Shown here: piece after piece, positions 17,563-33,714 of the stretch
How the letters are laid out: every line of letters begins with the position of its first letter
Position numbering within the stretch: position 1 is the stretch's first letter
DNA from: Thermoanaerobaculia bacterium
Lineage (GTDB): Bacteria; Acidobacteriota; Thermoanaerobaculia; Gp7-AA8
Direction: 5' to 3'
DNA: 36,038 bases
Assembly (NCBI GenBank): GCA_017883235.1
Contig: JADGNY010000070.1
Span: forward strand, 1-36,038
Translations under genes and position numbers: made by a program
The notes under the pieces: generated by a model
Told to the model about the DNA's origin: nothing
What the model saw: the letters and a program-made list of their open reading frames with translations, nothing else
The model's database searches: none

Positions 17563-17664
17563 AAACGTAGGCCGGCCTCTCCAGTCCGACCACTCCTGAG
17601 AAACGCAGGATGCAACAAACGGCCGCGCGAGAACCGGTCGGACTGGAGAGTCCGACCTACGTTT
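17563..17664. repeat. Inverted pair AAACGTAGG...CCTACGTTT
   Basis: Left arm 17563-17591 and right arm 17636-17664 are 29 bases each and complementary except at two positions. The core is GGACTCTCCAGTCCGACC, itself partly palindromic. It lies between convergent genes (phosphatase and transglycosylase) and may serve as a two-way terminator, although no T tract is present. Confidence 0.85.
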
Positions 17665-17685: not shown

Positions 17686-18435
17686 TCACCGAGTACCCGA
17701 CTCCGCCAGCTTGCCAGCCGCCGGCGCCGGCGTCATCGCGGCGCGGACATGTTTCGCGATCCGGTTGATGTAGTTGATCGTCTCGCGGAACGGAGGCACT
17801 CCGTTGTACTTCCAGACGTTCCCTTCGCCGGCGTTGTACGCGGCGACGGCGAGGTCGGCGTTACCGTTGAAGGTCTGGAGCAGCCAGCGCAGGTAACGCA
17901 CGCCGCCGTAGATATTGGCAACCGGATCGTAGGAGTCGGTGACGCCGAAGCGTTCCGCGGTGGAGGGCATCAACTGCATGAGGCCGCGCGCCCCTTTGTC
18001 CGATACCTCGCGGGCATTGAAGTCGGACTCCGCCTTGATCACCGCGGAGACCAGGGCCGCATCGACGTCGAACTTCTTCGCCGCTTCGACGATCAGATTG
18101 TTGAACTTCGACTTGAAGATCGGGCCACGCTTCTCGTCGTAGCGCCAGGAGCGCGTCGGGAAGATCCCGCCGTCCTTCTCGATCGCCTTCTTCACCTCTT
18201 CGACGATCGCGGGCGGGACGACCTCGTCATCGATAACACGATCGATTCGGGTGAGAGGGACCGTGATCGCCCCGCCGCTTTTCAGCGTTAGTTGCATGTC
18301 GCTCTCGCCGATAACCTTGAACGCGCTGATCTTCATGGCTCGCCCGTCGACGAACAGGGCGATGCTCGCACCGGCCGGGGAGGCGAGCGCGACAAGAGCG
18401 ATGAATGGAAGAAGCCGCTTGATCATTGGACGCAT
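17686..18435 (-). CDS. Soluble lytic transglycosylase (SLT family)
   Basis: Periplasmic enzyme that cleaves peptidoglycan glycan strands to 1,6-anhydro ends. From ATG 18435 (or 18426) the protein has about 249 residues with a signal peptide (MIKRLLPFIALVALASPAGA). After a short region that resembles a SH3-like or DUF4124-type start (ALFVDGRAMKISAFKV) comes the SLT domain: DAALVSAVIKAESDFNAREV with catalytic Glu in KAESDFN, SDKGARGLMQLMPSTAERFG, YDPVANIYGGVRYLRWLL, and AVAAYNAGEGNVWKYNGVPP. All four signature blocks of family 1 transglycosylases are intact. The longer open frame upstream of 18435 runs through a repeat element and lacks coding character. Confidence 0.93.
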   Translation of the reverse strand: MRPMIKRLLPFIALVALASPAGASIALFVDGRAMKISAFKVIGESDMQLTLKSGGAITVPLTRIDRVIDDEVVPPAIVEEVKKAIEKDGGIFPTRSWRYDEKRGPIFKSKFNNLIVEAAKKFDVDAALVSAVIKAESDFNAREVSDKGARGLMQLMPSTAERFGVTDSYDPVANIYGGVRYLRWLLQTFNGNADLAVAAYNAGEGNVWKYNGVPPFRETINYINRIAKHVRAAMTPAPAAGKLAESGTR

Positions 18436-18468
18436 CGTCGTGAACGGGGCAGGGTCGCTCAAACTTCC

Positions 18469-18598
18469 ATGCTGCGCGAAGACGCAGCATCTCCGGTGAT
18501 ACCGGCAGGAACAACATCTCTTTTGACGCACACGCGTCGCGCATGGTTTCCAACTCGCGGCGCCACCGGAGATCCTGCCGTCTCCGCGGCAGGATGAA
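18469..18598. repeat. GCGAAGACGCAG/CTCCGGTGG repeat family, inverted pair
   Basis: Two diverged copies of the element that is repeated at 33511-33714, in opposite orientation. Copy one, 18469-18500: ATGCTGCG, CGAAGA, CGCAGCAT, then CTCCGGTG. Copy two, complement of 18561-18598: ATCCTGCC, GCGGAGAC, GGCAGGAT, then CTCCGGTGGCG. The stem bases differ between copies yet remain paired. The first copy also continues into CCGGTGATACCGG, a small perfect palindrome. It lies between the recombinase and transglycosylase genes. Confidence 0.85.
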
Positions 18599-18604
18599 CT
18601 TCCT

Positions 18605-19540
18605 CTACGCCCGCGGGTGAAATTGATCGTACATCTTCTGCAGACGTGCCCGGGATACATGCGTATAGATCTGCGTCGTCGAGATATCCGAGTGCCCGAG
18701 CATCATCTGGACGCTGCGGAGGTCGGCGCCGTTTTCGAGGAGATGCGTGGCGAAGGAGTGGCGCAGCACATGGGGCGAGATGTGTCCGGCGATTCCGGCC
18801 TGGCGCGCGTATTTGGTGATCTTCATCCAGAAGGCCTGACGCGACATCGGCCTCCCGCGGCTGGATAGGAAGAGATAAGGATCAGCGTGTTTGTCGAACC
18901 GCGGCCGGCCGCGCTCGACGTAGACGATGATGGCATCGCGCGCGCTGTCGCCGAACGGCACGATCCGCTCTTTCGATCCCTTCCCGATCGTGCGCAGAAA
19001 TCCGGCATCCATCACCAGATCGTCGATCTTGACGTGGATGAGCTCCGAGACCCGCAGCCCGGTCGCGTAGAGCAATTCCAGCATGGCCCCATCGCGCAGG
19101 CCCTCAGGCGTCGTACGGTCGGGAGCGCGCAGGAGCGCATCCACTTCCTCGGGCTGCATCGACTTCGGCAGCGTCGTCCACAGCTTCGGGTTCTCGAGGT
19201 TCTCGGTCGGATCGTGTTTCAGATGCCGTTCCGCAACGAGAAACCGGAACATCCCACGAATCGCCGCCAGCGCGCGCGCGACCGAGCGCGCGGAGATTCC
19301 GGCCGAGCGAAGGGCCTGGAAGTAGCGGACGATGTCAATGCGCTGGACGGCGTCGAGCTCTCTCTTCTGATCGCCGAGCCAGTGCCCGAAATGGCGGAGG
19401 TCGGTCTGGTACGCGGACAGTGAATTCTTCGCCAGTCCTTTCTCGACCGCAAGGTAGTCGAGAAACATCGGCAGCCAGGTCAGAAAGTACGGGCCCGATT
19501 CCTTCTTCTCGGGATCATTTGCGCGTGGGCTTTTACGCAT
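18605..19540 (-). CDS. XerC/XerD-type tyrosine recombinase
   Basis: Site-specific recombinase of the kind that resolves chromosome dimers at dif. The 311-residue product (ATG 19540; ATG 19552 also possible) overlaps the end of lipA. The N-terminal SAM-like domain is at FLDYLAVEKGLAKNSLSAYQ. The catalytic residues are in place: Arg in LYATGLRVSELI, Lys in GKGSKERIVPFG, HxxR in SPHVLRHSFATHLLENGADL, His in MMLGHSDISTTQIYTHVS and the nucleophilic Tyr in that same stretch. Length and sequence are those of housekeeping XerD rather than a phage integrase, and there are no phage genes around it. I cannot tell XerC from XerD by eye. Confidence 0.93.
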   Translation of the reverse strand: MRKSPRANDPEKKESGPYFLTWLPMFLDYLAVEKGLAKNSLSAYQTDLRHFGHWLGDQKRELDAVQRIDIVRYFQALRSAGISARSVARALAAIRGMFRFLVAERHLKHDPTENLENPKLWTTLPKSMQPEEVDALLRAPDRTTPEGLRDGAMLELLYATGLRVSELIHVKIDDLVMDAGFLRTIGKGSKERIVPFGDSARDAIIVYVERGRPRFDKHADPYLFLSSRGRPMSRQAFWMKITKYARQAGIAGHISPHVLRHSFATHLLENGADLRSVQMMLGHSDISTTQIYTHVSRARLQKMYDQFHPRA

Positions 19541-20408
19541 TGGCAGCTTCATGCGCCACCGCGTCCGCCATGTACGAGCTGCGCACAAATGGACCGGCGA
19601 AGACGGCGCGGAAGCCGATCTCTTCGCCGATGGCGCGGTATTCGTCGAAGACGCCGGGAGCGATGTATGCAACGACGTCGAGCTTCTCGCGTTTCGGCTG
19701 AAGGTACTGTCCGATGGTGACAATCTCGACGTGCGATTCGAACAGACGCCGCAGCACGTCGATGACTTCGTCGCGCCGCTCGCCGAGGCCGAGCATCAGG
19801 CCGGACTTCGTGATGATGGTTGGGTCGATACGCTTCGCCTCGCGGAGCACCGCCAGCGAGCGCTCGAAACGGGAGCCGGGGCGGACGAAATCGTAGAGTC
19901 GAGGCACCGTCTCGACGTTGTGGTTGAAATAGTCAGGCCGCGCTTCGACGACGGTGCGCACGGAGTTGAAGTTCCCGCGAAAATCGGAGGTCAGCACCTC
20001 GACGGCGGCATCCGGCAGCGCGTCGCGCAAGGCTTCGATCGTCCGCGCGAATTGCCGTGCGCCGCCGTCGTCGAGGTCGTCGCGCGTGACGCAGGTAACG
20101 ACGACGTGCCGCAATCCCATCTTCTTCGCCGCCTCGGCGACAGAGCGCGGCTCGTCGGGCGACGGCGGCATGTGGGGGCGGCCGGTAGTCACGTTGCAGA
20201 AACCGCAGGAGCGCGTGCAGACGTCGCCGAGGATCATGAACGTGGCCGTGCCGCGCAAGAAACATTCGCCGCGGTTCGGACAGGCCAGCGATTCACACAC
20301 CGAATGAAGCGACTTCTCGCGCAGCAGCGACTTGATCTCGTGCAGATCGCGGAGGTTGACCTTCTTCTCGCGAATCCAATCAGGGAGGCGGCCAGACATT
20401 GTTGACAT
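19533..20408 (-). CDS. lipA: Lipoyl synthase
   Basis: Radical-SAM enzyme that inserts two sulfurs into a protein-bound octanoyl chain to make lipoate. From ATG 20408 it is 291 residues (ATG 20399 is also possible). The auxiliary cluster motif CESLACPNRGEC (C-x4-C-x5-C) and the radical-SAM motif CTRSCGFC (C-x3-C-x2-C) are both intact, followed by family blocks VVVTCVTRDDLDDGGARQFA, FNHNVETVPRLYDFVRPGS and KSGLMLGLGE. The C-terminal serine that ligates the auxiliary cluster is supplied by AGPFVRSSYMA. lipB is absent nearby. The start lies just past the carD terminator, so lipA and the overlapping recombinase gene probably form their own transcript. Confidence 0.97.
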   Translation of the reverse strand: MSTMSGRLPDWIREKKVNLRDLHEIKSLLREKSLHSVCESLACPNRGECFLRGTATFMILGDVCTRSCGFCNVTTGRPHMPPSPDEPRSVAEAAKKMGLRHVVVTCVTRDDLDDGGARQFARTIEALRDALPDAAVEVLTSDFRGNFNSVRTVVEARPDYFNHNVETVPRLYDFVRPGSRFERSLAVLREAKRIDPTIITKSGLMLGLGERRDEVIDVLRRLFESHVEIVTIGQYLQPKREKLDVVAYIAPGVFDEYRAIGEEIGFRAVFAGPFVRSSYMADAVAHEAANA

Positions 20409-29256: not shown

Positions 29257-30642
29257 ATGACCACCCTCATCAAAAACGGCCGCGTCGTCACCGCGGTCGA
29301 TGACTACCATGCCGACATCCTGATCGAAGACGGCACCGTCGCCATGATCGGCAAATCGATCGATGCGAACGCCGACAAGGTCATCGACGCTAAGGGACGG
29401 CTCGTCATCCCCGGCGGGATCGATCCGCACACGCACATGGAGCTGCCGTTCGGCGGGACCTCAGCCTCCGACACGTTCGAGACGGGGACGATCGCGGCGG
29501 CGCATGGGGGAACGACCACCATCATCGACTTTGCCGTTCAGTACAAAGGACAGTCGCTGCAGCAGGCGGTGGATGCGTGGCACGCCAAGGCCGGCGGCAG
29601 GACGTCGATCGATTACGGGTTTCATCTCATCTGCACCGATCTGCCGGACGAGCGGCTGCCGGAGATGAAGTCGATGATCGATGAAGGGATCTCGAGCTTC
29701 AAACTCTTCATGGCCTATCCCGGAGTCTTTCTCGTCGATGACGCCACGATCTTCAAAGCGATGGGGACGGCCGGCGAAAACGGCGGGCTGATCTGCATGC
29801 ACGCGGAGAACGGCGTCGTCATCGATGCCATCGTCAAGAAAGCTCTGGCCGAGGGGAAGACGGCCCCGAAATATCACGCCCTGACCCGGCCGACGAAGGC
29901 GGAGGCGGAGGGCGTGCATCGAGCGATTGCACTTGCTGAAATGGCGGACGCTCCGGTGTACATCGTCCACCTCAGTTGCGACGACTCGCTGCAGGAAGTG
30001 ACGCGCGCCCGCGACATGGGCATCAACGCCTATGCCGAGACCTGTCCGCAGTACCTCTTCCTCGACTACAGCGTCTACGAGCAGCCCGGTTTCGAAGGGG
30101 CCAAGTACGTGATGACGCCGCCCATTCGCGAGAAGTGGAACCAGGAGAAGCTGTGGCGCGGGCTGAAATTCAACGATCTTCAGGTCGTCTCGACCGACCA
30201 CTGCCCGTTCTGTATGAAGGAGCAGAAGGAGCTCGGGAAGAACGACTTCTCGAAGATCCCCAACGGCGGTCCCGGCGTCGAGAACCGCATGTCGCTGGTC
30301 TACAACGGCGGCGTGGCGGAGGGGCGTATCTCACTGAATCGTTTCGTCGAGATCACCTCCACCTCGGCGGCAAAGATCTTCGGACTGTTTCCGCGCAAAG
30401 GAACGATCGCCGTCGGCAGCGACGCCGACATCGTCATCTTCGATCCGAATGAAGAGATGACCATCAGCGCGAAGACGCACCACATGAACGTCGACTACTC
30501 CTGCTACGAGGGGCGAAAGGTGAAGGGCGTTACGAAGACGGTGCTGTCGCGCGGGGATGTGGTGATCGAAGAGGGCAAGTACGTTGGGAAACCAGGGAAG
30601 GGCCAGTTCTTGAAACGGGGCCAGGCGTTTAGCCCGCGATAG
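29257..30642 (+). CDS. Dihydropyrimidinase (D-hydantoinase family)
   Basis: Zinc amidohydrolase that opens the ring of dihydrouracil, dihydrothymine or hydantoins. 461 residues, full length. Metal ligands are present: HTHMELPFGG, the carboxylated lysine in SSFKLFMAYPG, MHAENG, YIVHLSC and the Asp in STDHCPF. The C-terminal segment GTIAVGSDADIVIFDPNEEM closes the barrel in the usual way. The neighbouring NCS1 transporter and N-carbamoyl-beta-alanine amidohydrolase give uptake and the next reaction, so the set fits reductive pyrimidine degradation; dihydropyrimidine dehydrogenase (preA/preT) is not in the window. Confidence 0.95.
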   Translation: MTTLIKNGRVVTAVDDYHADILIEDGTVAMIGKSIDANADKVIDAKGRLVIPGGIDPHTHMELPFGGTSASDTFETGTIAAAHGGTTTIIDFAVQYKGQSLQQAVDAWHAKAGGRTSIDYGFHLICTDLPDERLPEMKSMIDEGISSFKLFMAYPGVFLVDDATIFKAMGTAGENGGLICMHAENGVVIDAIVKKALAEGKTAPKYHALTRPTKAEAEGVHRAIALAEMADAPVYIVHLSCDDSLQEVTRARDMGINAYAETCPQYLFLDYSVYEQPGFEGAKYVMTPPIREKWNQEKLWRGLKFNDLQVVSTDHCPFCMKEQKELGKNDFSKIPNGGPGVENRMSLVYNGGVAEGRISLNRFVEITSTSAAKIFGLFPRKGTIAVGSDADIVIFDPNEEMTISAKTHHMNVDYSCYEGRKVKGVTKTVLSRGDVVIEEGKYVGKPGKGQFLKRGQAFSPR

Positions 30643-30644
30643 CG

Positions 30645-30730
30645 CCTGGGACCGCGGGCGTCTCGCCCGCGTTTTGATGCCGGGCACCCTGCCGCTCGCA
30701 AGCGCAGGGCGAGACGCCCGCGCTCCCAGG
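30645..30730. repeat. GGGCGTCTCGCCC inverted pair
   Basis: Left arm 30645-30671 (CCTGGGA, CGCGGGCGTCTCGCCCGCG) and right arm 30704-30730 are complementary with few mismatches. Each arm is itself a palindrome around GCGTCTCGC or GCGAGACGC. The core GGCGTCTCGCC also occurs in the inner inverted repeat at 6826-6928. It lies between the dihydropyrimidinase and transporter genes and probably affects mRNA ends; the rest of the gap to 30820 shows nothing clear. Confidence 0.8.
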
Positions 30731-30820
30731 GGCTACGCACGAGGCCGCGTTCCGGATCGCTGTGGCATGGCACAATGTCGCCCACCCCTCACTTTGGGAA
30801 TCCCGTAGCGGAGGCAATGC

Positions 30821-33510: not shown

Positions 33511-33714
33511 TCATCCTGCGCGTAGACGCAGGATCTCCGGTGGCGTGGCACTGACTTGATTCATCCTGCGCGAAGACGCAGGATCTCCGGTGGCGTGGCA
33601 CTGACTTGATTCATCCTGCGCGAAGACGCAGGATCTCCGGTGGCGTGGCACTACCGTTGGGTTGCAGCAGGATCGCGTTATACCACCGGAGATCCTGCGT
33701 CTTCGCGCAGGATA
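33511..33714. repeat. Three 50-bp direct repeats plus one inverted copy
   Basis: Units start at 33511, 33561 and 33611 with an exact 50-base period; each is TCATCCTGCG, CGAAGACGCA, GGATCTCCGG, TGGCGTGGCA, CTGACTTGAT, the first with one change and the third cut after 40 bases. An inverted copy lies at 33684-33714, adjoining the xdhA start. Each unit forms the hairpin ATCCTGCG / CGCAGGAT. The same family occurs at 18469-18598. All of the 220-base gap between the two genes is repeat. Confidence 0.92.

Follow-up and report, generated by a model that had tools for sequence, protein, structure and literature searches.

The hairpin repeats of the window, a 36,038-nt stretch of DNA (contig C108) from a soil bacterium, are members of a real, high-copy family of compensated DNA palindromes in REPIN form. 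The family is best explained, with a probability of about 60%, as a non-autonomous REP family arranged as REPINs and related to the CGTC-class REPs. The genome of the window (G000) comprises 6.92 Mb in 246 contigs, and it was compared with two MAGs of the same genus, G001 (Acidobacteriota, isolate CP_BM_ER_20) and G002 (Thermoanaerobaculia, isolate Chersky.9_17). A set of 18 genomes of the bacterial family served for the comparison of repeats and RAYT genes, and a wider set included 297 Acidobacteriota genomes.

Six hairpin copies of 22-24 nt were located in the window, a first cluster at 18469-18595 and a second at 33513-33713; their consensus is ATCCTGCG-CGNAGA-CGCAGGAT-CTCCGGT, with variants (Table 1). 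All of the stems quoted in the original prediction were found at these six sites. Its CGAAGA loop is not common to all copies, those at 33513 and 18572 having CGTAGA and CGGAGA, respectively. In place of its common tail CTCCGGTGGCG, CTCCGGTGATA was found at 18491 and CTCCGGTGGTA in the copy at 33692, the tail after CTCCGGTG being variable among the window copies. Folded as DNA, the first hairpin has an energy of -8.6 kcal/mol (z -3.05). The small tail hairpin, followed as a second helix across the family, had 88.7% of its cells paired and no two-sided pair changes. In the second cluster, the third direct unit pairs with the inverted copy, with 57 nt between them.

Table 1. Hairpin features of the window; positions refer to the window.
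Feature	Position	Strand	Remark
First element, inverted pair (REPIN)	18464-18600		two hairpins and outer 5-nt flanks
Hairpin ATGCTGCG-CGAAGA-CGCAGCAT	18469-18490	+	followed by tail CTCCGGTGATACCG
Small tail hairpin CGGT-GAT-ACCG	18494-18504	+	weaker
Hairpin ATCCTGCC-GCGGAGAC-GGCAGGAT	18572-18595	-	followed by tail CTCCGGTGGCG
Hairpin ATCCTGCG-CGTAGA-CGCAGGAT	33513-33534	+	unit 1 of three direct 50-nt units
Hairpin ATCCTGCG-CGAAGA-CGCAGGAT	33563-33584	+	unit 2 of three direct 50-nt units
Hairpin ATCCTGCG-CGAAGA-CGCAGGAT	33613-33634	+	unit 3 of three direct 50-nt units
Inverted hairpin ATCCTGCG/CGCAGGAT	33692-33713	-	closes second element; + strand flank AAACT

The first element sits between genes for an SLT transglycosylase (17686-18660, minus strand) and a XerC/D-type tyrosine recombinase (18605-19723, minus strand); for the former, the listed start is too far upstream. 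A link of this element to integrons or Xer through the adjoining recombinase gene was judged to be coincidence, because other copies adjoin many different genes.

The family is not confined to the two sites: the pattern GCAGGATCTCCGG with at most one mismatch gave 287 matches (132 + 155) genome-wide in G000, against 5 (3 + 2) for the reversed pattern. Exact matches to CAGGATCTCCGGTG numbered 154 (73 + 81), with none for its reverse, and a covariance model built from the six window copies returned at least 139 matches, 150 of 3852 candidates being scored. Several G000 copies are a few hundred bases or less from the end of their contig (C1, C6, C12, C21, C45, C46, C67, C208), and assembly gaps may therefore hide more copies or a linked gene.

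The anatomy of the repeat was derived from 187 copies of 59 sources, obtained from 60 G000 stretches around listed matches and from the window by a tight filter that demands A[T/C][C/G]C[T/C]G at the copy start, so that the first bases of the stem are to some extent predetermined by the selection. Copy lengths were chiefly 34, 22, 24 and 35 nt. The short form reads ATCCTGCG-C-GNA-G-A-CGCAGGAT, and the long form ATCCTGAC-GGYGAGC-GNA-GCGAGCC-T-GTCAGGAT. The central C-GNA-G loop was present on the CTCC strand in 169 of the 187 copies and on the opposite strand in none, 18 copies being without the central GNA; the variable loop base was A in 80, C in 48, T in 33 and G in 8. GA/GA stands beside GC-GNA-GC in 90 of 135 copies, which is not Watson-Crick and could form tandem G.A pairs. 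The DNA mini-hairpin d(GCGNAGC) has unusually high stability, and tandem G.A stacks well beside a DNA loop of this type.

Neighbouring copies within 200 bp were oriented '+-' in 60 cases in G000, as against 2 '-+', 21 '++' and 22 '--', and all 15 such cases in G009, another genome of the family set, were '+-'. Such a neighbour was found for 168 of the 187 G000 copies, and a spacer of 57-58 nt separated the paired hairpins in 28/60 cases in G000 and 5/15 in G009. Orientation and spacer thus indicate REPIN-like pairs with their tails inward, which extend to small arrays, e.g. the three 50-nt units at 33.5 kb. Placement was mostly intergenic, as only 62 of 187 copy midpoints fell inside greedy ORFs, against a coding fraction of 0.865 in this rough ORF test. 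A short palindrome in many copies, extragenic and often in inverted pairs, is a REP/REPIN in the broad sense, and the REP-like character proposed originally is thereby borne out.

Both window sites are without the element at the orthologous positions in G001 and G002. In both, 37-38 nt (alignable ends) separate the SLT gene from the recombinase gene, versus about 162 in the window, and the second site spans 16 nt in G001 versus 229 in the window, with an unrelated inverted repeat there in G002. The flanks are too diverged in these two genomes for exact element ends, and the difference could also be a loss in both. No excision or recent transposition event was seen for the family. Direct repeats of at least 6 nt within 12 nt, as target-site duplications, occurred in 1 of 34 isolated pairs (shuffled mean 0.39), and AACTTCC on either side of the 18469 element was rejected as such a duplication, there being no excess over these pairs. 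Apart from a few unrelated repeats, the only large segments shared among the copy-bearing G000 stretches were the palindromes and the arrays that they form. A 240-nt self-complementary repeat at L043 13545-13784 and L097 126-363 (95% identical) is distinct from the hairpin family.

Relatives were sought in the 18 family genomes with a model (R2) trained on G000, G009 and G001, with 150 candidates scored per genome. Matches were obtained in 12 of the genomes and none in the other six: G000 (at least 137), G009 (at least 113), G013 (at least 85), G008 (17), G001 (12), G007 (12), G002 (8), G015 (7), G003 (5), G012 (2), G010 (1) and G016 (1). Copies in G009 are nearly uniform, AGTTT-ATCCCGCG-CGNAGA-CGCGGGAT-CTCCGGT, and ATCCCGAGCGNAGCGAGGGAT with its variants and CTCCGG tails is found in G013, G007 and G008. 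In the wider set, a 21-nt palindrome core was present in 37 of the 297 genomes, the reversed control giving 0 throughout; exact matches in the more distant G020, G033, G054 and G056 were set aside, as inspection by eye revealed no obvious hairpin of the family. YGTC (TGTC or CGTC) precedes the stem in 27/32 copies at 30 Acidobacteriota loci outside the family of the window, GTTT, GTTC or GTCT in 20/32 copies at G007, G008 and G013 loci, and in G000 the tag is GTYY in 68/187 and YGTC in 5/187 copies. Tails outside the family of the window were CTGC (8), CCCG (4), CTCC (3) and others among 32 copies; because of this variation the wider group does not conserve GGAG, which was rejected as a class-wide guide. 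The YGTC-type core was counted 57 times in G012 and 35 times in G009, compared with 2 and at least 113 R2 matches, and subfamilies therefore appear to expand independently.

According to the accessible part of a 2013 survey (Di Nocera et al. 2013, PMC3733652), CGTC REPs carry the tag CGTC (or TGTC, CCTC), 8-9 bp stems starting with AT, loops of 4-5 nt and CCA-like tails, with dimers predominating that have the tag outside; five phyla are named in that part, Acidobacteria not among them, and no transposase association. Compared with this partial description, the window family is alike in its 8-bp stems starting with AT, its unpaired tail and apparently its short loops, its chief arrangement as dimers with the tag outside ('+-' over '-+', as above) and its lack of a dedicated transposase. 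It differs in the tag, in the tail, which is CTCC(GGT) and not CCA in both G000 and G009, and in inner stems that are often longer. Most arms of the 8-bp outer stem begin with AT, the filter itself having required A[T/C]; the loop consists of the GNA triloop and a variable inner stem, so that 6 nt fall outside the 8-bp stem in short-form copies and as many as about 20 in long-form ones. Judged from these sequences, the family looks like a variant of the CGTC-class REPs and not a strict member, since the tag (often GTYY) and the tail (CTCC) differ.

Two other classes were compared. GTAG-tagged REPs and REPINs with a RAYT (TnpA-REP) are likewise high-copy intergenic palindromes in inverted pairs, with a bulged hairpin and a four-base foot ending in AG on one strand, whereas the window copies have no GTRG tag (GTAG/GTGG) and no adjoining RAYT; their foot is GGAG on one strand, with GTYY or others on the opposite. 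The ends of IS200/IS605 elements and class 3 TnpA-Y1 repeats, described in the accessible part of PMC6006769 with the foot CnGA, from Acidobacteria and at high copy, resemble the window family as subterminal DNA hairpins with a 5' foot in high copy. In contrast, neither of the two IS200-type genes of G000 is flanked by the window repeat, and no Y1 gene in G000 is so flanked, whereas an IS200/IS605 MITE would share its ends with an autonomous element of the genome. G009, with at least 113 copies, has no IS200-type Y1 over the Pfam cut-off apart from its RAYT. No description of the palindrome strings or of the window-family variant was found in the accessible parts of the open-access literature (including PMC3733652, PMC8266576, PMC6006769, PMC3686654 and PMC12306157).

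The search for Y1 (RAYT/TnpA-like) transposase genes that had been proposed with the prediction identified ten in G000, nine by PF01797 and eight, RAYT-like, by NF047646; the best NCBIfam match among nine scanned Y1 proteins was NF047646 for seven and IS200 for two. None of the ten genes lay beside the window hairpin repeat, although with 246 contigs a gene in a gap is possible. At 83 overlapping Y1/RAYT loci of the family genomes, 67 loose hairpin matches were obtained, none with a window-family stem by eye. Repeat copy number and RAYT number were uncorrelated over the 18 genomes (Spearman 0.08, p 0.76). When twenty ORFs located near copies or between them were compared with Pfam, 14 had matches, in each case to a household or regulatory family and never to a transposase, and six had none; an autonomous partner between neighbouring copies was rejected on this basis.

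RAYT genes in related genomes have hairpins of their own. The gene on G002:C55 is surrounded by GTAG-GTCGGACT, that of G009 by GTGGAG-CGGCGCCCGC, and the RAYT hairpins of G015 read GTAG-CGGCGGGC. The window itself contains, at 17567-17661, a GTAG-tagged inverted REP pair of another family (GTAGGCCGGCCTCTCCAGTCCGACC / GGTCGGACTGGAGAGTCCGACCTAC), which is frequent in G002 and flanks the RAYT gene G002:C55:402-809. Hairpins with the core GGCGAGACGCC lie in the window at 6826-6944 and 30634-30735 and at L105, L107 and L099; with similar ones beside three RAYT-like G000 genes, they may be a cognate REP family. Hairpins of the form GGCACAGACA-(4 nt)-TGTCTGTGCC were seen at L106 2443-3217 and L099 2443-2466, surrounding RAYT-like genes or close to them. 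Direct repeats about 0.59 kb apart and 74-82% identical (23568-23743/24158-24333, 23987/24583, 23810/24403) likely represent a duplicated gene in the window.

An ordinary RAYT-mobilised REP, with a RAYT elsewhere in the genome acting in trans, was the mobilisation originally proposed. The eight NF047646 matches in G000 are compatible with it, and so is the foot of the G009 RAYT hairpins: the window palindromes have CCGGAG and thus share with them the final four bases of the foot (GGAG) and a nearby CT. As given in the accessible part of PMC8266576, an A3G4-to-CT guide model of RAYT would predict CT near a GGAG foot. On the GGAG strand CT at +4/+5 is near-invariant in G009 (C 33/35, T 34/35), but these positions are weak in G000 (C 88/196, T 95/196). 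G016, of the same genus as G009, has no RAYT and a single model match, yet G004 and G011 carry short RAYTs over the cut-off and no model match. Together with the unflanked Y1 genes of G000, the 83 loci, the absent GTRG tag and the lack of copy-number correlation, this leaves the proposal without support, and we consider it unlikely.

That the stem changes are compensatory, as first noticed in the window, was upheld in three analyses of covariation across copies, including one with the 5' arm ignored and one with both sides free. When copies were chosen by loop, 3' arm position and tail only, 297 of 328 stem cells were Watson-Crick in G009; the corresponding figures were 334/504 in G000, where about half of the 63 rows are chance matches, and 15/40 in G001/G002, a set holding many chance matches. 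Among the element-like G000 rows, 22 were ATCCTGCG/CGCAGGAT, and all nine with a changed 3' arm were fully compensated (six CGCAGGGT, two CGCAGCAT and one GGCAGGAT); one row had a G-T first pair and one was without a 5' arm.

In the second analysis, an alignment of 58 copies of 22 nt (31 from G000, 26 of the G009 copies and one from G001), the outer helix was 99.6% paired, with two-sided changes at five of nine pairs and no cell with a one-sided change; the whole structure was 96.2% paired versus 25-45% in slid controls, a percentage inflated by the preselection of copies for at least seven of eight pairs, G-T allowed. Of 500 shuffles, 5 attained as many pairs with two-sided changes and 208 as many further pair types. 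A single swap, from T-A in G000 to C-G in G009, accounts for much of the two-sided signal. In the third, a phylum-wide pattern (ATYCYGAGCGNAGCGARGRAT) with both sides free, 148 of the 150 matches listed from 19 genomes paired at each of two free positions, whereas 75.6 and 109.7 are expected under independence. The copies of one genome are related, and these pairings are hence not independent events.

The original prediction had allowed either a folded RNA or single-stranded DNA. G-T wobbles are near-absent (5 G-T and 4 mismatched among 1496 stem cells in G000, 1 G-T among 280 in G009), and this, together with the restriction of the GNA loop to one strand, favours a DNA hairpin over an RNA. 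Mutation without selection, by template switching that copies one arm of a palindrome onto the other, would likewise leave changes nearly always two-sided and mismatches as few as those in G000. Such a process should erase mispairs too, yet the tandem G.A is kept in two thirds of the GC-GNA-GC copies and the GNA loop is retained on one strand, and the high copy number, the fixed pair geometry and the species-wide swap of G009 need amplification as well; we regard this explanation as quite improbable. RNA elements spread between genes, such as terminators or mRNA-stabilising hairpins, would suit the intergenic placement but are quite improbable, given no Rfam match at gathering score within the window, no terminator-like site at 18300-18800, the scarcity of G-T pairs, and inverted pairs at fixed distance with copies on both strands.

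In the preferred reading, a non-autonomous CGTC-related REP family, each unit is a DNA hairpin. Its outer stem of 8 bp (A[T/C]-first) often carries a bulge of 1-2 nt on the 3' side, the inner stem varies in length and frequently has tandem G.A mispairs, C-G closes the GNA triloop, and CTCCGGT follows the hairpin; two such units face each other with about 57 nt between them. Spread may proceed through single-stranded hairpins of the units, which an unlinked HUH-type (Y1) or other enzyme would recognise in trans. The folded substrate would presumably be the strand with the conserved GNA, or, under a RAYT-like guide rule, the opposite strand with the GGAG foot and CT at +4/+5 after the hairpin; the recognised strand is ambiguous, because the GNA loop favours the one and the GGAG/CT rule the other. 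A bolder and doubtful proposal is that of a transposase-orphan REP class, Acidobacteriota-wide and compensatorily diversified, defined by an unusually stable single-stranded DNA fold of GC-GNA-GC with sheared tandem G.A on one strand. Copying in trans might then be the work of an enzyme associated with other REPs (for G009 its one RAYT, the single Y1 gene over the cut-off) or of a host enzyme that processes single-stranded DNA and is not yet known as a mobiliser.

The mobiliser of the CGTC-class REPs is an open point in the accessible part of the 2013 survey (PMC3733652). The present analysis places a CGTC-REP variant and its YGTC-tagged relatives in Acidobacteriota, with a fold kept by compensatory change. 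The contrast of G009, with its many matches and single RAYT, to G016 of the same genus makes mobilisation in trans directly testable, and the one-stranded GNA loop predicts which strand an enzyme must bind.
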